This document shows, in pieces, positions 1,799 to 33,500 of a stretch of DNA of 64,000 nucleotides. Origin of the DNA: Homalodisca vitripennis (Eukaryota; Arthropoda; Insecta; Hemiptera; Cicadellidae); NCBI RefSeq assembly GCF_021130785.1, contig NC_060207.1:193617501-193681500 (forward strand), read 5' to 3'. The notes beneath the pieces are model-generated. The model was not told the origin of the DNA and did no database searches. It saw nothing but the letters and a program-made list of their open reading frames with translations. A program made the translations under genes and the position numbers. Each line of letters begins with the position of its first letter. Position 1 is the stretch's first letter.

Positions 1799-1977
1799 TC
1801 GGAACACCATGGTCTTTTAACACTCTACCACTGACTGGGAACCTGGGAATCTGCCACTTAGCATACTCATCTAACAATGCAGTCTCATGCTTGTAAGTGA
1901 GCATCTCCTTTATCCACTCCTGGATAGATGACAACTTGGCACGTTGCTGCAGCATGATTGTGTTATACTTGCACCAC
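1799..1977 (-). CDS. TRNT1: TRNT1 exon 8
   Basis: The acceptor is TCAACAG. The exon encodes [29 protein letters not shown] and [12 protein letters not shown]. The strong donor CGA|GTAAGT lies exactly where the family continues as SGK..LG, so a last exon of ~30 codons should follow. I found nothing convincing between 1 and 1798, so it probably lies beyond the left edge. Read-through instead gives a stop at 1749 after an unrelated tail. Confidence 0.9.
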
Positions 1978-4900
1978 CTGTTGACATAGAAGACATTTAA
2001 GTAAAAATATATTCGTTCAATAATTTATATAACATTTAAGAATAATATTGATTTATTAAATTAAAAATATTGTACTAGAAAAGTATTAAAAAGTTATTTC
2101 CTCAAATTCAAAAGTGTGTAATATTAGCAATAATTTATAAATCTACAAGAAGGTGTGTTTGATCCAGTATTTGTGTAGAAAGAGGAAGAACTCACCTTAA
2201 AAAAAATTTAAGTTCCATGATTCTTATAATTAGTTAAAAAATTATATTTATTTAAAAACCATTAAAATGAGTGGTAGTGTAAGAAAGTTGTCAAAATTAG
2301 GAGGTGGCAGTGAAAGTGTTAATATTTTGCATAGTTATCGTTATTTGAGAGAACACTAAATGGATGTGAATGTTGAGAGTCACTCCATTTCACCTTCCTC
2401 TTAGTGTAGTGTATGAAATGTGACGCTGCCACAGACTTAACTCCTGGAATCTGGAGTCATGTTCGTCTGAAGAAATGCAAAAAAAAGTAGACGACGAAGA
2501 AGCTCAAAATAAACTCTTTATATCGTTTCGACATCAGAGACAAAAGTAGTGAGAGAAAAAAGTAATTTATTAATGTGTCAAAAAATATATGTCTAAAAGT
2601 GTGGAACTACAGTTGCTGGGTATTAGAAAAAAGTCAAGGAATTAATTTCATAAGGTATCGGCTTATTTTATATTTGAGATAATGCAACCCTTTGGAAGTT
2701 TGACAAATGACTTACCTTAAAGTAATATTGTCATTTCTGTGAGCGATGATAAAGAGTCCCATGTCTCTGTGAGACGAGGACATCTTCAGTCTTGCATTCA
2801 AATCCAAAAACTGAAATCACACACATTCAGAAACGTTTGTATAGAATAGTTTATAGTAATAGATATAGTATTCTATAACAATCATACTATAGACAACAAA
2901 AGAGCCAGAACTTCTGTGCAGTAGTTTTTTTAGTAGCTGCACAACTGGATCAGTATTAGATAATGACTTTTATATCTGATCTAACCTCGAGTCCAGAGAA
3001 TCTTCTGAAGCACTGAAAACTCCAAAATGCCGAAACATATGGAATTACATACGGAGAGTCTTAAGACTCTGCGTCCATATATATTGTGTTAACATTTGTG
3101 GTCCAAAGTCATTTTCAATCTTTATGATTTATTTTAGAGAAGGGAGAAGAGTAAGCAAAGTGTTATATTCTTTGTATAAACTGGGTACCTTTAATGATTA
3201 TGAACAATATTTTCCTTCATTTATTTGCTGTCAACTTTCCCAGTCTAGACAATTGGGTGCCAAAATAAGCTGTAGAAGGAAAACTTTAAAACAAGTTTTT
3301 TATTATTTTAACCTACAATCAACCCCTCTTAATGCTAACTTCCAACCCCTACCAGCAGCGAACGTTGTTTGTATTAATGACTCATCAGAGATCTCTCCTC
3401 AATATCTTGCCCTTAATACAACTGATCTGAAGTTGGCCTCATCCCAGATTACTGATTTATTTAATTATTTAGCTATTATATGGTATATTTAAATAATACA
3501 CCATTTTATAAATCAGTCACAATTTGCAAATTCTTATAAATTGCACTATTCTTCGTAGAAGTAGGCAATTCCTGCAGAGATTGATAATTTTAATGATCTA
3601 GGAGGTTTTAGACTTGACATCCTCTACAAGTAAGAATCACAGGTCATTGCAATTAGGATCATTGTTGAAGTTACAAGAGCCTCAATGCCTCTCTTTCATC
3701 CACTGGCCACCTTGGCCATGTCCATAGTAAACCTGTCTTCATTGACTTGCCCCACATACTTGATGTGGTGTAGACTTGTGGCCAACTAGGGTAGAAGTGC
3801 TATCCACCAGGTGCCTGATTTTACAACCAGGTAACCACAAACTAACAAGTAGAGCTACAATAACAAGAACTACATTAAAGTTTAACATGTTTACTTCTGC
3901 GTTTAAGCAACACCATCCAGTTTTTGTGTTCTAAAATTTTCAAATTTCACACTCAAAAACAGTACATATGAACTTATTTTGTATAAAAATTGTGTTTTAA
4001 TCAAATCATAAGTTTCCGATTATTGTAACTCTACTAGTTAATTTGCGGTTGACGTTCAAACTCGGGTATACTTTTTGATCCGAGAGTATGTCCGTAACAA
4101 GAAGTAAAAAGGCATAAAAACAAAAGGCATAAAAACAAATCACTGAATTTTGTCCACATATTAAATTTAAAGAGTTATACCTGTACCAAAGAACAACAAA
4201 TTAAGACAGTTTGTGGGTATTAACCTCCTTCCTGTATGTGTCCGAATGACATTGAAGCATTTAAGCAAGGGTATTATCAGAAGAGATGTACTAGTGTTTG
4301 AAAAATTAAACTTTTTATTACCTCGTCTTCATTCCTGAATAAAGGTGTCATCCTTGAGACTGGATTCAGCTCAATGTTTTTGCCACTGTTGTATAGTTCA
4401 ATAAAACTTTCCACATCTGGTTCCTTTGGCATTCCTGCAAAAAAATTACTACCATAATATTGATTTTCCCCTTGATTTATTTTATTATATAGAAAAGCAT
4501 GTATCCCATATTTCAGTGTACCAAACATCTTTATTAAGAATAAAAACTATACCCAAAAAAATTATGCGCATTAAAACACACTTGTAATGTTTTCTTACAA
4601 TCATAGAAGTAATCATATAAATATGGCAAAACTTTGTATATATAAAGTAGATAATGCAATATTGTATATAAGTATATTTACCCATGTGTGGGCCAAGTCC
4701 ACATTTGATAATGTCCTCGACAAGGGAACCCCAGAAGTTGCCAGCCAATATAAGTGAGAACTCCATCCATATTCTCTCTCCAGATATCTGAGCAAGACCG
4801 GCCCCATTCTCCTTGATGGCATCCAAGGTGTCTCTGTCATGGTTATCAGGCACTTCTGCTATCCTCCCATAAAACCTGCACATTACTAGAGTTAAGCTGG

Positions 4901-7900
4901 ACAAGGGTACTCTAGAAGTTGCCAGCCAATATAGGTGAGAGCTCCATCCATATTCTCTCCCCCAGATACCTCAGCAAGACCGGCCCCATTCACCTTGATG
5001 GCATCCAAGGTGTCTCTGTCCATGGTTTTATCAGGCACTTCTGCTATCCTCCCATAAAACCTGCACATTACTAGAGTTAAGCTGTACAAGGGTACTCTAG
5101 AAGTTGCCAGCCAATATAGGTGAGAGCTCCATCCATATTCTCTCCCCAGATACCTCAGCAAGACCGGCCCCATTCTCCTTGATGGCATCCAAGGTGTCCT
5201 CTGTCATGGTTATCAGGCACTTCTGCTATCCTCCCATAAAACCTGCACATTACTAGAGTTAAGCTGTACAAGGGTACTCTAGAAGTTGCCAGCCAATATA
5301 GGTGAGAGCTCCATCCATATTCTCTCCCCAGATACCTCAGCAAGACCGGCCCATTCTCCTTGATGGCATCCAAGGTGTCTCTGTCATGGTTATCAGGCAC
5401 TTCTGCTATCCTCCCATAAAACCTGCACATTACTAGAGTTAAGCTGGACAAGGGTACTCTAGAAGTTGCCAGCCAATATAGGTGAGAGCTCCATCCATAT
5501 TCTCTCCCCAGATACCTCAGCAAGACCGGCCCCATTCTCCTTGATGGCATCCAAGGTGTCTCTGTCATGGTTATCAGGCACTTCTGCTATCCTCCCATAA
5601 AACCTGCACATTACTAGAGTTAAGCTGTACAAGGGTACTCTAGAAGTTGCCAGCCAATATAGGTGAGAGCTCCATCCATATTCTCTCCCCAGATACCTCA
5701 GCAAGACCGGCCCCCATTCTCCTTGATGGCATCCAAGGTGTCCTCTGTCATGGTTATCAGGCACTTCTGCTATCCTCCCATAAAACCTGCACATTACTAG
5801 AGTTAAGCTGTACAAGGGTACTCTAGAAGGTGTCAGGCAATATAAGTGAGAGCTCCATCCATATTCTCTCCCCAGATACCTCAGCAAGAACCGGCCCCAT
5901 ACTCCTTGATGGCATCCAAGGTGTCTCTGTCATGGTTATCAGGCACTTCTGCTATCCTCCCATAAAACCTGCACATTACTAGAGTTAAGCTGTACAAGGG
6001 TACTCTAGAAGTTGCCAGCCAATATAGGTGAGAGCTCCATCCATATTCTCTCCCCAGATACCTCAGCAAGACCGGCCCCATTCTCCTTGATGGCATCCAA
6101 GGTGTCTCTGTCATGGTTATCAGGCACTTCTGCTATCCTCCCATAAAACCTGCACATTACTAGAGTTAAGCTGGACAAGGGTACTCTAGAAGTTGCCAGC
6201 CAATATAGGTGAGAGCTCCATCCATATTCTCTCCCCAGATACCTCAGCAAGACCGCCCCATTCTCCTTGATGGCATCCAAGGTGTCTCTGTCATGGTTAT
6301 CAGGCACTTCTGCTATCCTCCCATAAAACCTGCACATTACTAGAGTTAAGCTGTACAAGGGTACTCTAGAAGTTGCCAGCCAATATAGGTGAGAGCTCCA
6401 TCCATATTCTCTCCCCAGATACCTCAGCAAGACCGGCCCCATTCTCCTTGATGGCATCCAAGGTGTCTCTGTCATGGTTATCAGGCACTTCTGCTATCCT
6501 CCCATAAAACCTGCACATTACTAGAGTTAAGCTGTACAAGGGTACTCTAGAAGTTGCCAGCCAATATAGGTGAGAGCTCCATCCATATTCTCTCCCCAGA
6601 TACCTCAGCAAGACCGGCCCCCATTCTCCTTGATGGCATCCAAGGTGTCTCTGTCATGGTTATCAGGCACTTCTGCTATCCTCCCATAAAACCTGCACAT
6701 TACTAGAGTTAAGCTGGACAAGGGTACTCTAGAAGTTGCCAGCCAATATAGGTGAGAGCTCCATCCATATTCTCTCCCCAGATACCTCAGCAAGACCGGC
6801 CCCATTCTCCTTGATGGCATCCAAGGTGTCTCTGTCATGGTTATCAGGCACTTCTGCTATCCTCCCATAAAACCTGCACATTACTAGAGTTTAAGCTGTA
6901 CAAGGGTACTCTAGAAGTTTGCCAGCCAATATAGGTGAGAGCTCCATCCATATTCTCTCCCCAGATACCTCAGCAAGACCGGCCCCATTCTCCTTGATGG
7001 CATCCAAGGTGTCTCTGTCATGGTTATCAGGCACTTCTGCTATCCTCCCATAAAACCTGCACATTACTAGAGTTAAGCTGTACAAGGGTACTCTAGAAGG
7101 TGTCAGGCAATATAAGTGAGAGCTCCATCCATATTCTCTCCCCAGATACCTCAGCAAGACCGGCCCCATTCTCCTTGATGGCATCCAAGGTGTCTCTGTC
7201 ATGGTTATCAGGCACTTCTGCTATCCTCCCATAAAACCTGCACATTACTAAGTTAAGCTGTACAAGGGTACTCTAGAAGTTGCCAGCCAATATAGGTGAG
7301 AGCTCCATCCATATTCTCTCCCCAGATACCTCAGCAAGACCGGCCCCATTCTCCTTGATGGCATCCAAGGTGTCTCTGTCATGGTTATCAGGCACTTCTG
7401 CTATCCTCCCATAAAACCTGCACATTACTAGAGTTAAGCTGTACAAGGGTACTCTAGAAGGTGTCAGGCAATATAAGTGAGAGCTCCATCCATATTCTCT
7501 CCCCAGATACCTCAGCAAGACCGGCCCCCCATTCTCCTTGATGGCATCCAAGGTGTCTCTGTCATGGTTATCAGGCACTTCTGCTATCCTCCCATAAAAC
7601 CTGCACATTACTAGAGTTAAGCTGTACAAGGGTACTCTAGAAGGTGTCAGGCAATATAAGTGAGTAGAGCTCCATCCATATTCTCTCCCCAGATACCTCA
7701 GCAAGACCGGCCCATTCTCCTTGATGGCATCCAAGGTGTCTCTGTCATGGTTATCAGGCACTTCTGCTATCCTCCCATAAAACCTGCACATTACTAGAGT
7801 TAAGCTGTACAAGGGTACTCTAGAAGGTGTCAGGCAATATAAGTGAGAGCTCCATCCATATTCTCTCCCCAGATACCTCAGCAAGACCGGCCCTATTCTC

Positions 7901-10900
7901 CTTGATGGCATCCAAGGTGTCTCTGTCATGGTTGTTAGGCACTTCTGCTATCCTCCCATAAAACCAGTACATTACTCAAGTTTACGCTCCACTAACAAAT
8001 GAAAGACCTTAATACAAATTAGGTGTACTGTAAGCTATTTTTTATTTTTATTTTTAAATCTATGTAGTGTTTATTCCATAGTTCTTTCTTAAAGCTCCTG
8101 TACAAGGTCAGATATAACACAATTAACAAACCAGACATAAATTCTGGAAATGGTGGTCAAATTTCTCTCAATGGCAGAGTGTTCTTGGTACTTTGCTCAT
8201 TGCCTTATATTTATTTATAGACTAGATTTTGTTTTATACACATACTAGCGAAAGGGTTATCTGCAGTAATTAAAATGCAACATGTCCTGCTTCTTATCTT
8301 AGTATTTTGTTGTCTACAAGGACTATTTTGTTTTTGGTAGTTAGTATGTACAAAATATTTACGTGAATCGAAATAACAGCTGTATAAATTTTACCAAATG
8401 TTTAATATCAGTTTATAGATCTCTGTTTCTTATTAATACTAAATTTTACAGTGAAACAGACACACAAACGAATCTGGTCTTCTCCTGGTGCAAGATTTGT
8501 TATGATTTCAGGTCACAGTGAATTACATGTCATACTTATAAGCAATAGTGTTTACGTAATTATGATCCATGTTCCGAAGTGTTTCTGTAGATGATGAAGG
8601 CAAAATTATTTGTTTACCAATAGCATCGTTTTGGAGAGCACTTCTTTAGACAAAGTGAGCAATATTCAGATATAGGTCAGTATGTAGAGTACTTTGATTA
8701 ACTCGTAGATAGTTTAAACATGTGCTCTCAATCCTAGAATACAAGTCCACTATTCATTGTAGGAAGAGTTTTTGTGATCTTTTTGATAGACTGAAATCTG
8801 AACAAAAAGTTCAATTAGGAACAGAACTATATATGTGGATAGAAAAAATAATTTTGAAGCAATAATATTGCTACAAGTATGATGCCACCAAGAAGTTAAG
8901 ATTAAAAAATTATTAAAAAAATGTCAACATTGATTAATTTTTGGTTTACTCTTGCTAAAAAGTCTTGTCTTTTCTAAATACAAAAATTACTTTAAATACA
9001 TTAAAATACAACAAACATAAACAAAGTTAAATAAAAAAATATCTGTTATCTGGTAATATTAGCTATGACAAAAATAAGTATTCCCGAATGTCAATCGTAA
9101 AAAGTGAATGTTGCTAATATTCTTCTACCTTGCACATCAGCTGTTACGAAATATAGTATGTTAGTATACAAACCATATTGAACAAATCCAACACAATGTC
9201 AGGCAACTGGATATTATATGTCAATGTTAAAATTTAGGTATGCATGTGAATTCTATTTTTAAGAACTTTAGGGGATCTATAATGAGGGCCAGTTCTTTTC
9301 ATATTATCCACTAACAATTTATATGCCTCAATATCTTGGTGAATATTGCTTTCTATGCTGATGACACCACGCTACTTCTAAATGGAAAGGCACCAGATGA
9401 CATCGAAAAACCTTCCTGTACTGCTCTTAACATGGCATATCAGTATTGCTTTATTATTATCAGTATAGATGGAAACCTCACCTGGACACCACATCTTGAC
9501 AATATTAGTAAAATATTGAACACCAGCCTTTACGTTATAAAGCAAATAAAACTAAATAAGTGATCATACTGCTAAAACAGCATACTTCTCTCTTTTTTGA
9601 GGCACATTTTCGGTAAGGTCTAATGGTTTAGAGTACAAATTTGAAAAGGATACTTGTCTTACGAAAAAAGGCCATTAGGATCCTCTTTGACCTCCAAAGC
9701 CAAGATTCCTGTAAAGAAGCTTTTAAAGCACAGAGTATCTTGACAGTGGTTGCATTATACATTCAGGAAGTATTCCTGTATGTCGACGGTTAAGATCTGC
9801 CAAAGCTGAATAGCATACACCAACACAACATAAGAAATGACACAAAGTACATTCTACCCAACAACAATCTCACATTGTATGAGAAAAAACCTTCGTAGAT
9901 TGGTAGAAAACCGTTCAACCATATTATCGAAGATGTAAGAGTGGGAAACCTTTGAAGACTTCACTACACAGATGGCTTCTAGAACGACCCTATAGTAGGG
10001 TCGTTCTAGCTATAGCCTGGAATAATTCCTACTAAATACAATTTGATAACACTACAATTATTGTACTTTTATTTATTGAAAATACAGGTATTTGTAATCT
10101 TAACGATTACAAATAAAGATGATTCTGAATTAAACCATTTCAAACTTTGAAAAATAAGGTAAATTGAACAAAATAAATATTTAAATCTAACTTGTTCTTA
10201 TAACAAACTTTACATAATTATCTTTTAGTTCTTGGAAGTATCCCATTTTCCGAGGCATTTCAGAATGCTTTTCACGCCTTATATGAGTTTTCAGAATAAA
10301 AATAAGTTATTGTAAAAATACATACCTGAAATATCTCAGTATCCTCAAGTAATCTTCTTGAATCCTTTTCCTGGCATCACCAACGAACACAACTCTTCTC
10401 TTCATCAGATCATCATATCCATGGAAGTAATCGTACAGTGTACCATCCAAACCTAAGCAATTTCAAATATATCGCAACAGAATCATTGATAAATAATAAA
10501 TTGCGCATAGTGAATTATTTCAAAATTAAGAAATGACAAAACCCATGTGTGACCAAAGAGGTACAATGATTTGTTACTTCCAAATCCAATAAACAAATCT
10601 CTTTATTACTGTACATTTCTGAACTTGAGAAGCTGAAATACTTGAGTATATCAAGATGAATGAAAGATGTACAGTAATGGGTGAATGTAGTGTAATGTGG
10701 ATACTGGCAAGTCCTACAATTCCTAGGCAAATACAAATCTCTGAGACTCCGGTTATCTCTTCAAGCTACTGAAATCTAATTTCTGATCAAAATTCCAACC
10801 ACTTATCACCTGAGATGATCTGAACAGTTTTGCAGACCTTTCGTCATCAAAGTTATTTCTTGGGCATGCTGTTCATATATCTGCCAGGTTTATTTTGATA

Positions 10901-13900
10901 ACATTACAAAATTATCAGCAACATTTTTAATGATAATTTCTCATAGTAAAACAATTAACATAAATAGAAATGATATGTATGTAGATTCATTACTAGAAAT
11001 AAATCATACATTGGGTTTATATACTCGGGCAATGTTAACTTAAGAGTTTTTTTTTCCCTTAAAAAATGGGTTTATATCCCATTTGAAAAGAGTATTTCAG
11101 AATGGTCACTCTGCCAAAACTCAATTCAGAACTGTGTAAAATCTTTAAAAAAAACAATAATAAGTTAATATCACCATTGTTAATACTGTGATCCATCGAA
11201 AAATGCATACAGTTCAACCATAATAAAAAGTATAAGAAATGGGACACTGCTATTCTTCTGTTAGTCAAGCAGTAATCAGAGCACTGAATTCTTCTGCAAT
11301 AAGCTGTGATATGGTGTGGAACTAAGCCAATGTGGAGGCCTTCAATGATAAAGCAAAACTCACGTTGTACAACATTATATACTGACAAAGCATTATAACC
11401 ACCTCACCACATACTTCTGTAATTGTTTCGTAGTTAGCCACTACAGAGCACTAACAATCAAAGTATGTTACTGTCCGATTCTTTTAGTTCAAGCAAACAC
11501 CACTGCTAGGCTCTCTAGTTTATAGTGTAAACACGTTTCACCCTTGTTAACACAAGCTTAGCAGTACAGGGGTTACTCATATAATGTTTTATACTGGTCA
11601 TGCAAAATTGTAGGACACAATCATAATTGAAAGTACAATAATACTGATTTTTGTTCTTGAACAAGTTCCTCAGTTCCATGATATGTTAGCATGTAATTGT
11701 TTTAAAATGTTTTGAACACAAATTTCCAATACAGTAATAATATTTAAGTAACTCTCATTTTGTAGAAGATCTCCTTATTTAACCTCAATTTGCCTGTGTA
11801 ATGATATTACGAAACAGAACAATTAGTACAGTTTAAGAGGATAGTTATACTCAAAAATGTTGAGTTTACTGACAGGATTTGAGTCTTCACTATTTCTAAC
11901 AAAGACTCAAAACCTGTTGAGGTGTGCAGCCACTAGCTGTTTCTGTACACCAGTATAATCTATTTTGATACAAACACTGTTCAAGTCCTCCACATGAAGG
12001 AAGCCTACCTAGAAACATGGAGTTGATGGTTAGGTCTCGTCTATTGGCATCCAACTTCCAGTCTTTGGTGAACTCCACCTCTGCATGACGGCCATCAGTC
12101 TTTTTATCAATTCTCAAGGTTGTCACCTAGAAATGTAGATTGAAACTTAACTTTTTGAATTTGGTTACACACATTCTATTATACTGAATGTACAAATTGC
12201 TACCAATATTAAAGAAAAAAGAAATAAATAGGAAACATAAACAAATTGTAACAATCATACACATTTCAACCAACAAAATTTATACATAGCACATCATCAC
12301 TTTGAAACTGAGAAGAAAAGAGTAAGACCGAAGGCATCTGGCCTTCATTCCTTGCCTTACTGACCGTTGCCTTCTTGTTCTCTTTGTTTCAGATGATGCG
12401 CTGCAACACCACAGACATTGCCGATATTGATTTTTTTCAATACTCTTTCTCCTTACCTAATACTTTGTGACATGTGTTGTTGTAATGAAATGCTCATTAT
12501 ATCTTACTATGCTTTTTTCACACACATTTGATATACAGTGTCAATTTATGGGGTAACAGTAGAGTATCTAATAAAGCTTTTATATGGCAAATAGAAAGCT
12601 CTTAATTAAAGGAGTACCAGACAGAGAGACATGTTTGCCAATTTTTTAAGAATTTCACATTATGACATTGCCTTGTATATATATTTTTTGTTGTCTCATG
12701 AAAGTTAAAGAAAATTTAAATGAATATCAAATCAGAGGAAATACTCACGATTATAATACAAGAAACTTATATATAAGCTTGACTTACCACCAATTAGACT
12801 AGAAAAAACTAAGAAAAGTCATATTTATATGGAAATAAAACTTTTTAATAAATTGCCAGAAGGAGCTTAGTTAGTTAGTACTGATAGGTTTAAGTCTGTA
12901 ATTAATAGCTGGTTAAAAGAAAAAGCATTTTATTGTGTCAATGAATACTTTGCCTGTGATACTAGTGATATAAGTTTTTAGACACGTTTCATTCTTTCGT
13001 TGTTTTTATTCTCTTGTTATTGTTATTTGTAATGTTCTTGTTGTTAATTATTTATTAATTTATTATCCTTGTTAAATCTTCTATTTTGTTAATATTTTAG
13101 ACTTTAGAGTGGTTGTACAAAATAACCGTAATTATTACTAAGTATTTTGACGAAGTCAATTGCATATGTGTACTGTGTTTAAAGACTAATAAAGATCTAG
13201 ATTCTTGATTCTTAGTACTCTAGGTTATGTGCAGTGAAATTGTTTTCACTCTCAGTGCTGTGTGTTCCATTCTCACATAGTACAGGAATGTACTTTGTTT
13301 TGTTTTTTACATACAACTGGTTCTGCTGTCATATTTACACTTTGGTGAGCTTATCACCACACGCTATAGTAATCTTGATCACAGAGGACAGCCCTTTGAC
13401 CTTTCGACCCCAAAATGAATAGGATTCTTCCTTGGACCAGGTGGATCCTATCTACGAAGATTAATATCAACAGAATATTTCTATAAAACATCATTACACA
13501 GACAAAAGAGACAGACAGATGAGAGGACTACCATTATACAGTGTGAGTTAAACGTATGGATATACTCTGTTTAGTTTTTGATGGCTAAAGATGGAGGGAT
13601 GGAACTTGGGACACCTTTCTAGGTAATAGGAAATAGAAATGAACTTTTTTGTTATTGTTACAACTTTGCCAATTTCCCCAAAATAGGATTTGGGGGGAAG
13701 GCTCAAAATTTGTAAATGTAAAGACCCATTAAGTGACACCTCATTTGAAAGGTCTTGATAAAAGAAGAAGAACAGTGGAAACTAGAGCTTTCTATATCAA
13801 TCCAGTATCTTTATCCATCAAAAACTAAACAAGGTGAATCCATACTTTTAACTCACACTGTATTACAAAATCAATAGAGCTCTTCCTTTAACAAGGAAAG

Positions 13901-16400
13901 TCTATGCACCAATTTTCAAGTCTCTACAACATTTTATAAATAGTTATGCACAGACGTACAGACAAGGACATTTTAACAAGGCCTTGTTGTGTCCTTAAGA
14001 AAACGGAGCTGATGAATATTGTTCATATTCTAATTTTGAAATATTAATTGATAATACTGCAGTAAATCGAGTTGTTTTAGATCATTATTGATTGAGGAGA
14101 AAACTATTTTATTTTTTTACAAAATATGTACATCTATCTAATGTTTGTGCCAATATATAACACATTATAAATCTTGTATGTATAAACCACTTACTTCAAA
14201 ATTTTGATTGTTATTTATTCTTGGTGTAATTGTACCATGCTTTTCACCATTATTATTTATCATTCTCACACCCTCTTTGTTAAACATCTCCTTCATCTGA
14301 TCAGGTGTTGCATTTGTAGCAAAATCTAAGTCTTTGGGCTTTTTGTTCATTAACAAATCTCTGAAAAAAAAAAACAAATAGATTAGATTTTAAATTGTTA
14401 TACCTCTAATTTTTCAGTTAACTTTTAAAAATTGTCTATTTTTATAGGCTAAGAAAAGCAATCACATGTACAAAAAACTAATCTAACAATTACTTTTGGA
14501 TTAAAACCTTTTTTAGGACAGGTTGAGAAGTAGTTTTTAAAAGGCTGCTGTAACCATAAAAAATGCTGATTAAATGTGGTTTTATAAACTACTGCAATTT
14601 AACAAAAATAAAACTATTGTTTGTAAAATCTTTAAAATTACATAGATTATGATTACATAATTATGTTTATATTGTTGCAAAAATATTATTGCCTTTTTTA
14701 AATTTTCTTATATAAATGATATTTGGAAACTTTTGCATCTTATAGTTATTACAAAACTTTTACTTAAATTTACTTAAACAAACATAAATACAGCGTTTTG
14801 TTTTTTCTGAAGATTATCAAATATGTATTACTTTTAGTAACAACGGGTCTAAGATGATAGCTTTACAAATGACAGCCATACAAATCATTTTAATTGGATA
14901 ACATAAACCTAAACGAAGTGACATAACGGAATTTTCAAACAGGAGTCAGTTTTCAACCTTTCAATACCCAATGTTTTCTAAAATGAATAAACTAGAGAAA
15001 CATAATATTTGATCATTGGCTGAGCATTAGCAAAGCCTATCCTTGGGGGTTAACACAATATTTCTTCTGCAGTCTGTCTGCCCGCATGATATCTGGAAAA
15101 CAACTTAACCTATAGATTTACCAGGAAACTTCATTTCTGTATAGGCAACATTGAGTTTGTTGATGTTGCAGATCCTTTTATAGGATTTGGCTTAGTGTTA
15201 GCAAAGCCGAACTTTCCACAGGATATTTAGAAAACAAACTGAGTGATGGATCTGAAATTTTTTTTATTTTACTACCATGAAGAGGCCTGGCACTATTTCT
15301 CTTCTGTCTGCCTTTTTACCTCAGAATACCTCAAGAGATAATTTAGCTACTAGCATGAAATGTTGTAGTTAACTTATTCTACCTAGACAACATCAAGTTT
15401 GATGATGGCGATTGTCTCCCAATGGGATTTGGCAGAGTTTAGTGCAGACTTACTGACCACAGGTTATATTAAAAACAATTTAATTTATAGACTTTAAATC
15501 TTGCATGAAACTTAATTTCTATATAGATACGATTGAGTTTGATGATGGTGCATGTTGATTTTCCTCCATGGGATTTGATTGAGCAACACTGAAGCTTATT
15601 ACTTAGTGGGCTGGCAAATGTTCTCTTTTATCTATCTTGAATAAATTGATTTTGTCTGTCTGTCCACAAGATACCTTGAGCATGACATCAGCTGCAGACT
15701 TGAAATTTTGCAATCAACTTTGACACAGCCTACTGGTGTTATATAGTCATACCTTATACGTATATTAATAATCTTGACTCATTAATACTTATACTCATAG
15801 AGATTGGGCTATTCACTATAAAAAAATAATTTCACTAATATTGTAAAAACAAATAAAAACTAGCCTACAAATTGAATAAATTGTTTTTTAAACATTTTAC
15901 AGTTCTGACAATTTCATACTTTATATAATTAATTGCATATTTACCACAATGATTTACTGTAATTTGTAAAAAATTTGTATTGCTGTTCACTGAGAAATAT
16001 CATTTTAAACCAGTTTAAATTAATCTGTCATTTGTGAGAAATGTGACAGAAACTTTGTTTAATAAATTCTATTTCATCCACCCTCAATAATTATCAATCT
16101 AAGGAAATGGAGCAGATTTCAGTCTCCAAGGTATTAAAGACTTCAAATCAGACATGTTTCATTCTAAGTCTAAATTAGTACTGTGTTGGTAATCTACCTG
16201 ACAGCTCCACCAGCAATCCGAAGCTCATAATTATGGTTTTTGAAGATAGAAGCCAATGTTAATAGTTCTACAGTGAACAGTGAGCTGAACTCCGGGGTGT
16301 CCAACTTCATTATGATTGGATTCTCTCTTGCTTTGGTTTCTTGTGCATAAAATCGGAAACTGCTTTTGAAATACGGCTTTAACTGCCTGATTGACAAAAT
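1799..16400 (-). CDS. TRNT1: TRNT1, CCA-adding tRNA nucleotidyltransferase (gene level, 8 coding exons seen)
   Basis: This gene adds and repairs the 3' CCA end of cytosolic and mitochondrial tRNAs using CTP and ATP. Eight exons join in consistent phase: 16400-16198, 14360-14195, 12126-12009, 10452-10326, 4875-4682, 4434-4322, 2810-2716 and 1977-1799, about 398 codons against ~434 in the human enzyme. Class II nucleotidyltransferase motifs appear in order: GGAVRD, the DLD metal-binding carboxylates in [35 protein letters not shown] and SGERIW. Every junction uses GT-AG. The N-terminal part before MKLDTPEF looks like a mitochondrial presequence (basic, no acidic residues early on). Missing from view are a start codon for that presequence and the last ~30 codons. 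Exon 5 is the source of a large tandem array (4.7-8.0 kb). The family assignment is secure; the two ends are not. Confidence 0.95.
2716..2810 (-). CDS. TRNT1: TRNT1 exon 7
   Basis: The acceptor is ATTTCAG and the donor TTAAG|GTAAGT. The exon encodes [18 protein letters not shown], then LFIIAHRND, which aligns with LDLRLK...LGLFIVKNR of the vertebrate protein. It is too short to stand out as an ORF and was found by searching for the missing block between exons 6 and 8. Confidence 0.88.
2820..4300. other. TRNT1 intron 6, no gene seen
   Basis: This holds a 122-codon plus-strand ORF (3124-3492) with no recognised domain and a short direct repeat (AAGGCATAAAAACAA twice near 4110-4140). I give the ORF no function. 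Confidence 0.5.
4322..4434 (-). CDS. TRNT1: TRNT1 exon 6
   Basis: The acceptor is a T-run then GCAG; the donor is GACGAG|GTAATA. The exon encodes [27 protein letters not shown] and RNEDE. It matches the segment of the family after HMG, where the tRNA-binding body begins. Phase 1 in (G+GA = Gly), phase 0 out. Confidence 0.92.
4682..4875 (-). CDS. TRNT1: TRNT1 exon 5, the only intact copy
   Basis: This is the array copy nearest exon 6. It starts after GTGCAG, encodes [32 protein letters not shown] and [11 protein letters not shown], and ends G|GTAAAT. It keeps an open frame past GNFW, where the tandem copies upstream read GNF then TAG. It reads CAGATATC (Gln-Ile), matching the conserved Ile of the family, where the tandem copies read GAGGTATC (Glu-Val). 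These differences mark it as the working, ancestral-type copy. Confidence 0.93.
4700..7990 (-). repeat. Tandem array of ~18 copies of TRNT1 exon 5 with its acceptor (~182-bp period)
   Basis: Eighteen head-to-tail copies have exon starts at 4875, 5060, 5242, 5422, 5603, 5786, 5968, 6149, 6329, 6510, 6692, 6873, 7056, 7237, 7417, 7600, 7783 and 7964 (period 180-185). Each unit holds the end of intron 4 (TAGTAATGTGCAG) and the first ~150 bp of exon 5. The junction falls after GNF, where the frame meets TAG. Copies are nearly identical apart from one- or two-base indels, mostly in C runs. Some units read GTTGCCAGCCAATATAGG and others GGTGTCAGGCAATATAAG. Only the lowest-coordinate copy continues into a complete exon. 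The highest-coordinate copy has CTG instead of CAG at the splice site. Collapse or expansion by the assembler cannot be excluded, but the variants argue for real repeats. Confidence 0.95.
7990..9255. other. TRNT1 intron 4, unique part
   Basis: AT-rich sequence between the exon array and an RT relic. No coding or repeat structure was recognised. Confidence 0.5.
9260..10015 (+). pseudogene. Decayed RT fragment of the 61.5-kb LINE family, inside TRNT1 intron 4
   Basis: It starts near the RGSIMRAS block, has the RT active-site box [10 protein letters not shown] (about 9350-9375), then [13 protein letters not shown]. In shifted frames come TAYFSL, the block corresponding to ILTVVALYI, and a C-terminus WLLERPYS. 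The order and residues match the C-terminal half of the ORF at 61529-63229. Several stops and frameshifts show it is dead. Confidence 0.8.
9979..10009. repeat. Perfect 14-bp-arm palindrome at the RT relic's C-terminus
   Basis: CTAGAACGACCCTA, a 3-base loop TAG, then the exact reverse complement. The left arm encodes the LERPY codons of the RT relic, so the right arm is an inverted copy of element sequence. Confidence 0.85.
10326..10452 (-). CDS. TRNT1: TRNT1 exon 4 (DYF and [10 protein letters not shown] motifs)
   Basis: The acceptor is GCTTAG and the donor TTCAG|GTATGT. The exon encodes [27 protein letters not shown] and [11 protein letters not shown]. The last block is the D motif of class II CCA enzymes. 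The exon is in phase with exon 5 only through the Arg codon AG|G, which each copy of the downstream exon-5 array also supplies. Confidence 0.95.
10460..12000. other. TRNT1 intron 3, no gene seen
   Basis: Small ORFs only (10515-10736, 11059-11388, minus); no domain, TIR or tandem repeat recognised. Confidence 0.5.
12009..12126 (-). CDS. TRNT1: TRNT1 exon 3 (RRDLTINS motif)
   Basis: The acceptor is CTAG and the donor CTAG|GTAGGC. The exon encodes [16 protein letters not shown] and [12 protein letters not shown]. The RRD motif is part of the nucleotide-binding site of this family. Phase 0 in, phase 1 out. Confidence 0.95.
12530..13212 (+). pseudogene. 3' end of a non-LTR retrotransposon (second RT family)
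   Basis: Fragments in several frames follow the usual order of this RT C-terminus: [57 protein letters not shown], and [19 protein letters not shown]. The 3' UTR ends in AATAAAG and a short GATTCTT repeat at ~13194-13212. It is a 5'-truncated, degenerate insertion in TRNT1 intron 2. Confidence 0.75.
13539..13860. mobile_element. TA-flanked MITE (Tc1/mariner type)
   Basis: Terminal inverted repeats start CAGTGTGAGTTAAA and end TTTAACTCACACTG, continuing imperfectly for ~50 bp (GTTTAGTTTTTGATGG inside both). TA dinucleotides at 13537-13538 and 13861-13862 form the target duplication. About 322 bp, non-coding. Confidence 0.85.
14195..14360 (-). CDS. TRNT1: TRNT1 exon 2 (DLD catalytic motif)
   Basis: The acceptor is a T-run then CAG; the donor is GAA|GTAAGT. 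The exon encodes [17 protein letters not shown], with the two metal-binding aspartates, then [13 protein letters not shown] and NFE. It joins exon 1 in phase 2 (AG+A = Arg) and ends in phase 0. Confidence 0.95.
14400..15000. other. TRNT1 intron 1, left part
   Basis: AT-rich, no recognised feature. Confidence 0.5.
15010..15770. repeat. Degenerate tandem repeat, ~4 units of ~165-230 bp
   Basis: Blocks recur in the same order: CTGTCTGCC/CTGTCTGTC with a following 'GATATCT' or 'GATACCT', a 'GAAACTTCATTTCTGTATAGG' type block, 'ACATTGAGTTTG.TGATG', then 'GGGATTTGGC...AGCAAAGC'. Units begin near 15010, 15180, 15410 and 15600. They are quite diverged. No coding sequence was recognised. Confidence 0.6.
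16198..16400 (-). CDS. TRNT1: TRNT1 coding exon 1 (N-terminus, GGAVR motif)
   Basis: The exon follows an acceptor (TTTACAG) and ends CAG|GTAGAT, phase 2. It encodes a basic presequence-like stretch, then [12 protein letters not shown] and ends in LRIAGGAVR, the start of the nucleotidyltransferase motif. No ATG lies in frame before the Met of MKLDTPEF, so either a short upstream exon supplies the mitochondrial start, or this Met (codon 30 of the exon) is used for a cytosolic form. The human gene has the same layout, with an internal MKL start after the presequence. Confidence 0.93.
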
Positions 16401-18779: not shown

Positions 18780-19840
18780 ATACAGGTTACTATCAAATTT
18801 TACTCATAATATTAATATTTAAAAATGTAATTTTGCTCTAGAAATAAACATGAGACTAATGAATGGTTAAATACCATGAACAATTCACATAGCAAACCTC
18901 CAAATAAGAGAACATGAAACTCATCTTTCTAAATCTAAAGACCTAAATAGTTACTACTAACCTTAAACAGTCTCATTGTAGAGATGATGATTATTAATGT
19001 TTTAAATGTTCATACTCTCTGTAGACAGCTTCCAAGCTTATAAACATTTTCCCAACAAATGTGCACTGAACTGATGTAATAACTATACCGGCTAAATGTA
19101 AATGCTGCAATAACCGATCTTAAATAAGATGATATCTAATTTTTATTAAATAAGCAAATTATTGAAATTGACTTCATAAATTTTCATTATTAAATATATT
19201 AATATTGAAAACAATATAAGAGAATTTAAATTAGATTCCAATTATGATATCTTATAAAGGTTATATTATGGATAAAAGAACTAGACTACACGTAGTACTT
19301 TACAAATAGAAATTAAAAGTCTCATCAAACAAAAAACACTATCACACAGGTTTTTAATTAGCTGTAGTTTTTCTTAATACATTATTGTCTTCTCTCTATT
19401 AAAAAATTGGTAAACTTAAAAAAAACAATGATCCATATATAATATATAATGCAAGATAAATTAACGTTGGTGTATTTATGTTCTTTCACTAATATTTCAA
19501 ATGTTTAATACTCAATTGTAGGTTCTTATTTAAGGTAAAACATTACAAAATTTAAAACAACAATTTTTACAAAGAAATGATACCACTTAATTAATTATTT
19601 CAACACTTTTGAGAATCTAAATTGATAAACTACCACTGGAAAGCATATTTTCATCCATGTGTTGAGTCAGACAGAATAATCAGAGAATTCTGAGCCTGAT
19701 ATTAATTCACTTGCAGTACTATCGGAAACAACTTGACTTTGTTACTGGATTTAAATTATATTGTAAATAAGTAGGTTATTTTCTTTCCCTCATTGCATTT
19801 TTCTACAACTAAACCCCCTAGTTTTAGTGACTCCTTTAAC
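18780..19840. other. Intergenic AT-rich DNA
   Basis: No ORF, TIR or RNA signal recognised. Confidence 0.5.
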
Positions 19841-27529: not shown

Positions 27530-30500
27530 GTATGTAACTATTTTTTACTTATAAGTCTAAGTTTACTTATCTAGTCCATGGTTTTGATAGACCCTATCCT
27601 GGTTTTTATTATTTTGACACACCATAGTTTGTAAGAACCCTTAGTGTTCACTCTTTATTCATATCCTACTTAACAGATAAGTACTAGTTTACTGTATAAT
27701 TTATTTTACGTAATTGTAACCCCACTATATCATATTTATTTATAAATATGTTCAAATATAGGCCTAAGTTTACCTACATACTTTTGTGAAAAAACTTGTA
27801 ACTAAAAAGGTCTACATCACAATGAGATAAGTCCAAACATGCTGATAAGAAACATATAATTAGAATTATTAGTGATGTTTGTACATTGCTTTGATAGACT
27901 CTAAAACATTTGCTTATATTTCCATTGTAATTAGTTTAATTTTATACAATCAAGGAATAAATAAGTGAGTGATGATGATATATCAGACAAAAAGTTTGAG
28001 AGGGTGCTACAAGTAGCTTGATGTATGTACTAATGTAAACATTAGAAGTCAAATAAATGAACCCTTGGGATACAATTTTGGATATTCGCCTTGAGTAAAA
28101 TAAATTGATTTTTAATTTGTTGCTTTGGGGCATTTGTGTTTATTTTTATAGAGTTTATAGGAAATTATGTGGAATAGAATTATTTGGCTGTATAGGCTAA
28201 GGCTGGTTATGTTAACATTGGCTAGGCTAGGTAACCTACCATATTTTTACCTTTACAGGAGAGAAGCCTATCCCCTTTTAAGTCTTGCTTTTCCCACCCT
28301 TATGGACTACTGGCATGTGTGAGGAGCTTATCAATGAGAATAAGGAGGAGAGTCAATACAGTATAAGGTTGATGGTACTGATAAAAAGAGCTACCCATTC
28401 ATAAACCAGATTTGAACTTGCACTATCTCTAACACAGATCTAACACCTTAAATTGCTTGACAGGAAAAACTTTACAATGGCATCAAAGGGATATTTTCAC
28501 CCACCACAATCCTAAACATTAAACTTTCAAACTTATTGAGACCAAAATGGTGTGATGGATTTCATCATGACAGCTTGTTTCCATGATAAATAGCTTTTAA
28601 TTTAGTATAAACACCCAAACATATTGTACATGTGTTTCACTTTTCTCCTTTTTATATTATATTCAATACAATATCATAGACAGACAAAAAGTAAGGTAAT
28701 TCTAAGCAATATATGGGTCAACCTCGATTTTTCTCATATTACAATATAATGTTCCAATAGTCAATTAGAAAAGGAAATGAGTAGAATTTCTTGCCGGAAA
28801 GCAGTTATAGGGAGCAGGCAACCGCCAGACGGTCATATATTGCTTAGAGTTACCTATTAGTGATCAGGGGCACTGACGTGATCTGGGCTTCAAATTTGGA
28901 ACTACTCGAGTTAATTTTTTTTCCAAAAGAGCAAGCAGCGCGAAGCGCTGCGCAGCGGGCAGGCATCGTGCGTGACCCTTTTTTTTTATTAAAAATTTCT
29001 GATAAATTGTTATTACATATTACAATATAATGTAGGTAATGTATGTAAAACAATTTTAAACACATAATTACATGCTGGAAAGCAAAGTAAACCAATAATC
29101 CGCCCAATACAAAATCTCCGTAAAAATCTGGTAAAGGAATCTGTGTCATTCCTTTGGCCTGAATCAATTCAGTATATACGAAGATCACGCACGATGCTTG
29201 CCCGCTGCGCTGCGCTTCGCGCTGCTTGCTCTTTTAGAAAAAAAATTAACTCGAGTAGTTCCAAATTTGAAGCCCAGATCACGTCAGTGCCCCTGATCAC
29301 TAATAGGTAATTCTCGCGGTTACCTGCTCCCTATAACTGCTTTCCAGCAAGAAATTCTAGTCATTTCCTTTTCTAATTGACTATTGGAACATTATATTGT
29401 AATATGAGTTGCCTGCTCCCTATAACTGCTTTCCGGCAAGAAATTCTATTCATTTCCTTTTCTAATTGACTATTGGAACATTATATTGTAATATGAGAAA
29501 AATCGAGGTTGACCCATATATTGCTTAGAATTACCAAAAGTAAGATAAATTTAAACTAAATGAATCGGAGTAAATTTGTTTAATTTAAATTGTATTTATC
29601 TTTATAACTAATAAGAAACATATTCTGTACCATACAAAACGTATTTGATTTTCTACTATACACAGAAATCTGACAATACAGTTACAAAATCTAAGTAAAA
29701 ACAATAATGTGTATATTTCTTCTTTCCTCTCATAGGTTACTCATTTTGTTTCTGTCATCAACTACGCTTTCAAAATCAGTTTAAACAAAAAAAAGTTATA
29801 AACAAATGTTTGAACTTGACATGTTGAGGAAACAGTCTTGGGTAGCGTATGGTAAGCGGACCCAGTTTTTATATTGATTAATACAATTATTGATACCTAA
29901 TATTTATATATCAAATACACGTCTATAAATCATATCTATAGTCATAATAACAGTCGTATTTGAAATTAATATAATACACATAGTATCAATCTCATAAATA
30001 ATAAATAAGATATAACGATTAAACAAACAATTAAAAATGGAAATAGGAAAAAGTTATAAATAATAATGAAATCATAACAAACATTTATAACAGAAAATAC
30101 AAAATAGTATGCATAATTATTTATATGTTTTCTCCTGGATAGCAATGATTAACCACTTTCGAGAAGTTGTTGAAGTATCTTCTCTAGAAAACCATACATC
30201 TCTTGTGTACAAATACTCACAGAGATGATCTACAAGAAAGTCGGCTGATATGGCCCTTTTTAAACTTCCTTTCACGGTCCTCCATGAGCTTTCAACTGTG
30301 TGTTATTATCTATATAAGAAAAATACGTTTACTATGTGAAAAATTGTTGATACAAGTTAGTTAAATTGTTCAAAAATCAATATCATTTGGTTATATCAAA
30401 AGTTATAATTAAGTAATATCATTTTTCAGTATCAGTAAAAAATATCGGGTCCGCTTATTGTACTCTACCCACAGTCTCATTTTCACACTCTCCCAACATT

Positions 30501-33500
30501 ATTTCTTCTTCTTCTTCTAAGGAGTTGACTATTGTCATGCACTTATGGCTCAAGGGCCTTTTGCACACCCTGGAAATATACCATGAGGCCAGCCAGTTTA
30601 CAGTTTCAGCAGTTCTACAATCCACTGGAAACAACCAATCAGGTCCTCTTAGGGAAATTCACCACCCTTGTCCAAACTACTATAATAATAATAATTCTTT
30701 ATATTGCAGTATAAACAATTAACAAAATTGCGTTGCAAGCGTCATTTCAACATTTTGATTTAAAAAATCTATAAACTAAAAACCTATCTTATCATAGGAA
30801 CAGTTTAATTCCACATACTCATGTGTGAACCTAACAATATATTGTATTTTTTAATGTTTTTGGATATCAGAAAATGGATAAATAGAATAATAATAATAAA
30901 ATATTAATTTTCATCCCAGCGGCCCATCGTAAACTCATCAACTGAGTAAAATGCCTTTGACAACAAAAAGTGTCTTAATCGAGATTTGAATTGTTTGGGT
31001 TCATTAATTCGTTTGAGATCTCCAGGGAGCTTATTGATTAACTTGACACCCATTTGAGATGGCAAGTGTTCGAACATAGCTGTTCTATGCTGTTCTGTCC
31101 TGAAATTGTTCCTGCCTTTGGTCTCGTACTGATGGACGTCCCTGCCCCTGAACCAGTTCACATTTGGAATCGGCAGTACAGGGCAACGTCGAGAATATAG
31201 AGGCTGGGTAAGGTTAGAAATCCAAGCTCCCTGAAGGCAATTTTACAAACGACTCTCTGGTTTTAATTTCAAAATTATTCGAACAGCTTTCTTTTGTGTT
31301 CTAAATACTCTGTCAAATTTGTATTTACAACAGCTGCCCCATAGCCTCAAACCGTAGGTCAAATGTGGATGTACTATGCCAAAGTAGGCAGTTTTCAGTA
31401 CATCAAACGAGCAGAAATTTTGCTAGATTGCGTAAGACATAAGTGCCTGAGGCAACCTTTTGAGCAAACTCTGTCAATGTGATCGCTTCAGTCAGTCCCC
31501 TGTCCAGGTACATCCCCAGAAAACTTGGTGGATTCGGCTTCATCTAAGATAGCTTCATCCGCCATCACAATTGGTCTGTATTCGTATTCTTGTTGACGGA
31601 GACAAAAATTTTATTACGTTAGTTTTTGGCATAGTTAGTTTTTAGATTTATATTTGAAAAGTGCTCGATGCATGCGTTTAGTTCAATAAAGGCTTTGAAT
31701 CTCAAGATCTTGTTTCGTACTTGATCTGATGCAGAGAGTCGTATCGTCCGCATATTGAATCACCTCTCCATTTTGAATTGATGAATTCAATCTGTTGACG
31801 TAAATGAGAAAAAGTATGGGCCCCCAAAATTGAACCCTGGGGAATACCGTACTGCATTTTTACTTTGCCTGACAGGGTGTTCGCGATCTGCACACACTGC
31901 TCTCTGCCACTGAGGTATGACGAAAGCCATTTATGCGGCTGACCCCGAACACCACATGTCCATAACTGATGCAACAATGTCCCATGATGCACACAGTCAA
32001 AGGCCTTTGAAAGGTCGAGAAATATGCTGATCACTTGTTCTCACCCCTCCAAGCCATCAACAACACAGTCAATGAGTTTTATTACAGCATCAATCGTCGA
32101 TTTGTTTTTCCTGAATCCGTACTGCTCAGTAATGAGTCAGCGCTCGTTGAGGAAGGTTGTGTCTGATAAGAGCTCACGTCTCTCTTGGGGTGAGTCTTAA
32201 ATTCGCGAGTGAATCAATTGTCAACCTGCCGCGCTGTGTTAATACTATTGGTTTTTGGGAGAGTTTTATTTTGGTGACTGCCACATAATTAAATTTTTTA
32301 AAATGTCTATGTGTGGGATGTGCCTGAAAACAATTACGGTTAAGCAGATAAGGTTGTCGTGCAAAGACTGTGTTAAGGATTTTCACGCAAGTTGTCTAAA
32401 AATGAGCAAGGCTGATGTAGAGTGTGTGACAGCGGATAACCTAGTGTGGAGAATGCCAACCTTGTGCTTCAGAACGGCGAAAGAGTATGAGGTTCGAGTC
32501 TCAAGCAATGGAGGGGAAACTCACCATAGAAGACGTTATGAAGAAGATTATTGAAGTGGCAGAAAGCCAAAGGGAAATGGAGAAAAACTTCAATAAGTCG
32601 TATGAAACACTCTACAGTAAAAATCGACGAGAGTACCGAAGCCGTCAAGATACAAAACTGAGGAAGTGGAAAAATGCCTCGCAATAGTTGATGGCCTAGT
32701 TAAATGAGAATAAAATACTCAGGGAGAAAATCAGTTCTCTGGAAGCACGCATCGAGGAGCAGGAGCAGTATTCAAGAAGGAACACTGTTGAAATCCATGG
32801 TATCCCACAGGAAAAAAAATGAAGACGTGGTGTCTGTCGTAAAGGAGGTGGGAAAAGCGTTGGACTTCAATATATCCAATACAATGATTGATGCCTGCCA
32901 TCGTCTGGGAAAAAAGATCTGAGCCCAACAGTCCTCCGCCTGGAATAGTGCTGAAGTTTGTAAGCCGACTAGATAAAGAAGAGCTGCTAAGAAAAAGACG
33001 TGTCAAAAGTAACTTCTCGACGCGGCACATGAACCTGGAAATGGACAAGCCGGTCTATATCAACGAGGTCCCTGACACCGATGAAGAGGAAGCTCATGGC
33101 AGAGGCACGGAAGTTTAAGCGTGAGAACAATTATCAGTTCGTTTGGGTGCGGGATGGAAGGATCTTTTTACGAAAAGAGGAGACTTCTAAAGTTATTCAT
33201 GTAACTTGCCAGGCTGACCTGCCAAAGGTAAATGTAAATAAATAGCTTATGTATGAAGGTTAAACTCAGTACCAGTATCTATTTCTTTTGTATGTTAATA
33301 CATTAAGTGTTATTTTTTTTATTTTATTATTATTATATTATGTAGGTCAACTTTGAATAAAAAAGTATACTAGTTATTTTGTATTCAGTATTAAGTAAAT
33401 ATAAACATAAAATCTTTAATTATGACTAATCAACATTCTGTAAAAATAATCCATCAAAACATAAGAAGCCTTCGTAAAAAACTGTTGATCTTTTTATACT

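Follow-up and report, generated by a model that had tools for sequence, protein, structure and literature searches.

Tandem arrays of alternative exons, such as those of insect Dscam, are made of head-to-tail exon copies that are open, diverged and alternatively used. Satellite DNA with ~180-bp monomers has its units in head-to-tail order, with a uniform interior and diverged edge units. Tandem repeats are also found in introns of coding genes, as in the ABCA7 VNTR (PMC5954066), and exon-like segments with an acceptor and a donor-like site occur in the retained introns of OGT, SF3B1 and ARGLU1, where they are termed decoy exons; a premature stop is reported for that of OGT in the part of the source consulted (PMC12017769). 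In human segmental duplications, intragenic tandem repeats can give rise to introns and switch on cryptic splice sites, as described in the portion of PMC2812944 consulted. The locus analysed here lies in a stretch of 64,000 nucleotides of the Homalodisca vitripennis genome (NC_060207.1, positions 193,617,501 to 193,681,500), hereafter the window, and it shares features with each of these systems.

The host gene, on the minus strand, is TRNT1. Eight consecutive exons with GT-AG borders form a single open frame of 398 residues that matches at 100% the NCBI H. vitripennis "CCA tRNA nucleotidyltransferase 1, mitochondrial" (P0001), an agreement that is not independent, since P0001 was apparently annotated on the same contig. 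The domain search with P0001 returned PF01743 (1e-35) and PF12627 (9.4e-8), so that the nucleotidyltransferase head and the RNA-binding domains of a CCA-adding enzyme stand in one open frame, and the best PDB matches, 4x4w and 1ou5, are TRNT1 / CCA-adding enzyme structures. The open exons with their GT-AG borders rule out a dead gene or pseudogene. Coding exons were located by tblastn and delimited by splice borders and frame; the likely first one came from a search for the MRLF + A pattern, with the N-terminus taken from P0001, which gave one candidate only (18976-18962) in the minus-strand region upstream of 16400. The intact exon holds the same residues as P0001. The features are as follows, with the exon numbers of the first-pass annotation in parentheses:

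18962..18976, minus strand: likely first coding exon of TRNT1 (MRLFK), donor AAG/GTTAGT
16198..16400, minus strand: coding exon (exon 1)
14195..14360, minus strand: coding exon (exon 2)
12009..12126, minus strand: coding exon (exon 3)
10326..10452, minus strand: coding exon (exon 4), donor CAG/GTATGT
7784..7964, minus strand: array unit 1, the 5'-most, type B, acceptor lost (ACTG/GTTTT), 5' flank diverged from the other units
4876..7783, minus strand: array units 2-17, with CAG/GTTTTATG acceptor, GAG/GTATCT donor-like site and CTAG at the stop position
4682..4875, minus strand: unit 18, the intact exon (exon 5), 194 bp, donor TGG/GTAAAT
4322..4434, minus strand: coding exon (exon 6)
2716..2810, minus strand: coding exon
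1799..1977, minus strand: coding exon
C1:193616720-193616548, minus strand: likely last coding exon, located in the assembly beyond the window

The array occupies positions 4876-7964 and is composed of 17 head-to-tail units of ~181 bp ahead of the intact exon, each made of the first ~161 bp of that exon and the end of the preceding intron. TRF reports a period of 181, 17.9 copies and 97% matches over 4720-7976, and the minus strand holds 18 exon-like starts, of which the final one, at 4875, belongs to the intact exon. The exon model places the array (~3.1 kb) within a 5.4-kb intron, and its length and identity exclude a chance origin. The proposal of the first-pass annotation that a TRNT1 coding exon turned into a tandem array within its own gene is borne out, and the gene is intact in other respects. 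Its count of seventeen copies also stands, with lengths of 180-185 bp (181 in 6 of 17) in place of the ~182 bp given, but the CAG acceptor that it ascribed to every copy, and called usable-looking, is present in 16 of the 17, unit 1 having no AG. The exon it numbered 5 is real; it becomes the sixth coding exon, because the five-codon first exon is probably that at 18976-18962.

Two unit types were distinguished, A (U04, U06-U11, U13-U17) and B (U01, U02, U03, U05, U12), and the interior of the array is uniform, as in satellite DNA: outside the block that defines the types, units 2-17 carry 6 substitutions in total, 4 of which represent one shared marker. In unit 1, 5 of the 23 intron bases and 3 of the 85 exon bases compared depart from the others, with an indel in the intron part, and beyond these it shows no difference from type B, a mirror image of the edge of unit 18. 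Changes private to single units within units 2-17 amount to 16 indel events (13 of them one base long, several within runs of G) and only 2 substitutions, the profile of residual long-read error, and the letters of the array are therefore probably not error-free. The same profile could point to an array inflated during long-read assembly, or to a few true copies multiplied by it, and the copy number comes from one assembly. Such an artefact appears very unlikely, since the window contains no N, the two types alternate without a simple period (B at 1, 2, 3, 5 and 12), the junction is on no other contig, and read error does not produce two diverged edge units around a uniform interior. Repeats are, moreover, collapsed in assemblies more often than they are expanded.

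The array is confined to one locus. A 24-base junction pattern (CTAG...) scanned through the 2.3-Gb assembly matched all 17 upstream units without mismatch and elsewhere gave just 2 matches, each with 3 mismatches, so that spread as a satellite is not supported and the array is no major multi-locus fraction of the genome; the first-pass annotation had raised an early stage of satellite birth. A DNA search with 621 bp of the array found this locus only (8 overlapping matches); this search passes over very common words, a restriction of which the pattern scan is independent, and together they rule out a dispersed repeat. The possibility of a second intact TRNT1 elsewhere, which would have undermined the original proposal, was also checked in the assembly and none was found: 27 of 28 protein matches are this locus, with 38 of 38 candidates scored. 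A match on C6079, a 39-kb contig, was rejected as a second TRNT1 at 36% identity; the contig looks foreign, given a GC content of 53% in the 3.9 kb sampled compared with the 32.87% that the consulted part of PMC8496328 reports for the species. That source also describes Nanopore sequencing of three H. vitripennis individuals and leg RNA-seq libraries from 16. The array-bearing locus is the only TRNT1 found in the assembly.

The 17 upstream units all hit a stop before the exon donor when read on. The more specific claim that every copy meets TAG right after GNF holds, as assembled, for 5 of them (U04, U07, U09, U11, U14), with U01 and U05 reaching their own TAG after DTF. Indels shift the frame of the remaining 10 of 17, of which 4 (U02, U03, U10, U13) continue to the GNF-TAG of a later unit. 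An 88-nt mini-exon made from a unit would also break the frame by length arithmetic. No truncated isoform was seen among the protein-database matches listed (best 120 of 4506, of 146 and of 1626), a weak absence. Apart from P0001, none of the matches listed exceeds 78% identity over most of the query, and those of at least 86% (best 120 of 146) cover ~48% of it or less; for three of them, P0177, P0184 and P0189, exon 4 alone is matched.

The working exon itself is a mosaic. Compared with the array consensus, it shows 0 differences over the first 108 columns and then 10 over 75, dividing it into two parts:

4791..4875, minus strand: first 85 bp of the working exon, equal to the array consensus (the homogenised part) and also to unit 11, along with 45 intron bases
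4716..4790, minus strand: the following 75 bp of this exon, not homogenised, where unit comparison shows 10 departures from the array consensus

A clean start of this length would arise by chance with a probability of 9e-5 if the differences were random, or 5e-4 excluding the two of the 10 that sit at the join itself. The second part has TGG where the units have TAG, and CAGATATCT where they have GAGGTATCT. With the units matching through exon base 85, a fragment must extend to base 86 or further to separate unit 18 (CAGATATCT) from the array (GAGGTATCT). Relative to Macrosteles P0002 (LAQISGERIWMEL, GNFW), the E and TAG codons of the array are derived states in place of Q and W, and the array retains L at a position where the working exon has F. 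The array-like start followed by a divergent stretch suggests that array sequence probably overwrote part of the working TRNT1 exon, a mosaic newly recognised here. The probable overwriting ends at the point at which a cryptic donor would come in, the stop codon following further along.

Regarding the splice signals, between -45 and +87 unit 11 differs from unit 18 by one base, and units 9 and 14 by two. Production of TRNT1 is therefore likely to require that 16 near-identical splice signals be passed and the seventeenth used, and, the acceptors being locally so similar, the choice of the last must rest on downstream context. The most likely such context is pairing with the real exon donor, that is, exon definition, which is expected for an intron of 5.4 kb. 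The distance from acceptor to exon donor is 194 nt for unit 18 and 379 nt for unit 17, and more for the remaining units. On the letters of the locus, the explanation we favour, and judge somewhat better than even, is that the array is removed as an ordinary intron, only the last unit running directly into the real exon donor, so that exon definition would pick its acceptor among the 17. This account is weakened in its pure form by donor-like sites that rival the real one and could allow units to be recognised as short exons. For the GAG/GTATCT present in all 17 units, U1 pairing energy by a crude estimate is -5.8, inside the range of the eight TRNT1 donors tested (-5.1 to -10.1), and AAG/GTGAAT in unit 17, at -6.9, surpasses the donor of the working exon (-6.5). 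Looping out of the array by RNA structure was rejected, the one unit folded (U15) being no better than shuffles (z 0.91).

Structurally, the units resemble decoy exons, 16 of 17 units having a CAG acceptor 88 nt from the GAG/GTATCT, and 17 of 17 having stops. Units 2-17 might then occupy splicing factors and delay or hold back excision of the intron, or send some transcripts to decay, with TRNT1 output falling as copy number rises. As described in the parts of the sources consulted, the decoy exons of OGT and other genes promote intron retention (PMC12017769), and the length of the ABCA7 repeat accompanies altered splicing and lower expression (PMC5954066). These are, however, different systems, any such effect in TRNT1 may be merely tolerated, and we consider this reading unlikely.

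A further property of the borders bears on what follows the use of an upstream acceptor. The exon starts with GT, so every border of units 2-18 reads CAG/GT (17 CAG/GTTTTA borders), and a junction rebuilt by splicing could be a new donor, as at a recursive splice site. Exon 4 might accordingly join any unit, with the rebuilt TTTCAG/GTTTTA re-spliced hand over hand as far as unit 18, and the array would correct itself. The rebuilt donor, with a crude U1 pairing energy of -5.6, lies within the range of the eight TRNT1 donors tested, but GTTTTA is weak by consensus, having neither the +3 purine nor the +5 G typical of good donors, and the border sequence is the exon's own, with no sign of selection for such use; this route is very doubtful. 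Equally hard to credit is its extension to a self-amplifying exon piece, in which gene conversion would rewrite the start of the working exon while the CAG/GT borders acted as a ratchet correcting wrong acceptors, copy number growing at little cost in a vital single-locus gene.

As part of the favoured explanation, the locus would have arisen through an old duplication with breakpoints within the exon and at the intron end, possibly at a GAG microhomology, after which the outermost unit would have lost its acceptor. Repeated unequal crossing-over or gene conversion would have kept the interior units almost identical, and the same homogenisation probably wrote array letters across the beginning of the working exon, while selection would have eliminated conversions extending to the cryptic donor and TAG. 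Splicing to any of the upstream acceptors would yield truncated TRNT1 and probably nonsense-mediated decay.

At this locus a single intron has 17 acceptors that are near-identical from -45 to +85, of which the last alone can give the enzyme. This makes the array a natural test of acceptor choice, for which first-come scanning, pairing with a downstream donor and step-wise re-splicing predict different outcomes on the same transcript. It is also a satellite-like array that was likely homogenised with, and partly overwrote, the working coding sequence of a housekeeping gene. Among the titles and abstract openings listed in a literature search none described an exon-derived array of this kind. 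The TRNT1 array is an intragenic tandem duplication of a new form. As in Dscam, copies of a single exon follow each other head to tail within the gene; unlike those exons, its upstream units are nearly identical and all 17 reach a stop before the exon donor, so that they are not mutually exclusive alternatives. With satellites it has in common unit length, head-to-tail order, a uniform interior and diverged edges, in only ~3.1 kb at a single locus and with no further copies found in the genome. As far as the consulted parts of the respective sources go, it resembles the ABCA7 VNTR (PMC5954066) in being, on the exon model, a tandem repeat in an intron of a coding gene, and differs in that it repeats coding exon together with an acceptor, the final unit serving as the working exon; it resembles the decoys of OGT, SF3B1 and ARGLU1 (PMC12017769) in its exon-like intronic segments, but holds 17 copies of the neighbouring exon itself; and, whereas the repeats of PMC2812944 average 30-bp units present four times, it comprises 17 copies of 181 bp in a one-locus gene.

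The exons of TRNT1 were located on the minus strand with a human TRNT1 sequence, and eight were matched. The eight follow one another with GT-AG borders and give a single open frame of 398 residues, which is identical over its whole length to the NCBI H. vitripennis CCA tRNA nucleotidyltransferase 1, mitochondrial (P0001), an agreement that is not independent because the contig of P0001 has the same length, 251,804,026 bases, as the contig of the window. As assembled, one of the exons is preceded by 17 head-to-tail units of 180–185 bp each (181 bp being the commonest length, in 6 of 17), and is itself the eighteenth:

18976-18962, minus strand: likely first coding exon of TRNT1, five codons
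7964-4876, minus strand: the 17 upstream units
4875-4682, minus strand: eighteenth unit, the intact exon, directly after the 17 units
C1:193616720-193616548 (on the contig holding the window), just beyond the window: last coding exon of TRNT1

Each unit is built of ~161 bp from the exon start and about 20 bp from the end of the intron that precedes it. The border between units reads CTTGT(A/C)CAG|CTTAACTCTAGTAATGTGCAG|GTTTTATGG, the corresponding exon stretch being CTTGTCGAGGACATT and the corresponding intron stretch, ahead of the 5'-most copy (unit 1), GTGGAGCGTAAACTTGAG. Judging from three bases, the founding join of the array could lie at a GAG common to exon and intron. The same intron contains a 33-bp near-perfect palindrome (9978-10010; chance expectation from 100 shuffles, none), perhaps a mobile-element end. 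Elsewhere in the window are an apparently broken Mos1/mariner-like transposase in two overlapping frames (55472-56369, minus strand; HTH_48 and Transposase_1), a reverse-transcriptase frame that stays open for about 580 aa (61478-63229, plus strand; RVT_1, 5.6e-31), further RVT_1 pieces on the minus strand (31702-32040 and 43436-44032), and two short tandem repeats (39182-39337, 44 bp x 3.5; 29319-29497, 89 bp x 2).

A second intact TRNT1 elsewhere, which the first-pass annotation had named as telling against its reading, was not found by protein search of the H. vitripennis assembly (2,304,811,887 bases, 14,901 contigs): 27 of the 28 matches belong to this locus, as exons or as units, and the other (36%) is on contig C6079. 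This distant CCA-adding-enzyme match (L022, G000:C6079:35500-39403) has a GC content of 53% over the 3.9 kb examined of a 39-kb contig, which, by its sequence, is probably foreign to the insect assembly. Neither a copy of the array elsewhere nor its junction on another contig was found in the assembly by pattern and DNA searches. A 621-bp array query gave eight overlapping matches, all at the TRNT1 array, and a junction pattern of 24 bases, allowing three mismatches at most, gave 19, of which 17 are exact and in the array and two are elsewhere with three mismatches each.

Reading on in the exon frame, all 17 upstream units meet a stop codon ahead of the exon donor. A TAG right after GNF had been described for every copy; as assembled, the stop is the unit's own TAG after GNF or DTF in only seven, the GNF-TAG of a later unit, reached through a frame shift, in four, and elsewhere in six. 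In the 460-residue protein the F of GNF is number 257 and falls within the RNA-binding domain match (223-270); a product ending at that point would therefore be without 203 residues. The CAG acceptor attributed to each copy is present as CAG|GTTTT in 16 of 17, unit 1 reading ACTG|GTTTT. Starting at exon base 86, where CAG|ATATCT stands in the working exon, all 17 also carry GAG|GTATCT. Its crude U1 pairing energy is -5.8, the eight tested donors of the gene spanning -5.1 to -10.1. Because a mini-exon of 88 nt would be frame-shifting, its inclusion would act as a poison cassette. Unit 17 alone has AAG|GTGAAT, created by a private substitution, with an energy of -6.9, a better score than that of the donor of the working exon itself (-6.5).

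From -45 to exon base 87, units 2-17 differ from unit 18, the working exon, by one to three substitutions and zero to six gap columns (one difference in unit 11, two each in units 9 and 14), so little in this span can mark the productive acceptor off from the others. The donor TGG|GTAAAT lies 194 nt from the acceptor of unit 18, 379 nt from that of unit 17 and farther from the rest. Exon definition is the expected mode in a 5.4-kb intron, and the best explanation is therefore that the last acceptor would be selected through pairing with this downstream donor, a reading of the sequence that we consider rather probable. The donor-like sites of the units make exon definition in its pure form less likely. 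Units bearing such sites along with acceptors might instead act as decoys, which seems unlikely, and hand-over-hand splicing at the CAG|GTTTTA of successive borders is quite improbable. 

The working exon that exon definition would select is a mosaic. Compared with the array consensus, it shows no differences over the last 23 intron and first 85 exon bases, and then 10 in 75; with ten differences placed at random, so long a clean start has a probability of 9e-5, or 5e-4 without the two at the join. Unit 1 is its mirror image: it differs at 5 of the 23 intron bases, with an indel besides, and at 3 of the 85 bases of exon, and from there on is identical to type B, one of two sequence classes of units. 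Unequal crossing-over or conversion leaves tandem arrays with a uniform interior and diverged edges. Against Macrosteles (P0002), E and TAG are derived in the array, and at a site where Macrosteles shares L with the array the working exon has F; array and working exon have thus each changed after the duplication. In the working exon, the homogenised part stops where the changes introducing GAG|GTATCT and, further on, TAG begin, a limit for which selection against longer conversion tracts would account.

Four linked substitutions in a span of about 16 bp separate types A and B, units 1, 2, 3, 5 and 12 being type B, and a further A/C marker is C in units 7, 10, 14 and 17. Besides these, units 2-17 have two private substitutions, against 16 indel events that are likewise private, a single base long in 13 cases. 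Residual long-read error typically leaves a ratio of this kind in repeats that short reads cannot polish. The frame shifts of the ten units concerned may therefore be spurious, and a TAG in every copy may be nearer the truth than the assembled sequence.

In the literature searched, no report was found of an array built from a gene's own coding exon in which the last unit is the working exon. Some of its elements belong to kinds already known: intronic repeats that influence splicing (PMC5954066), decoy exons (PMC12017769) and internal tandem repeats with an effect on gene structure (PMC2812944).
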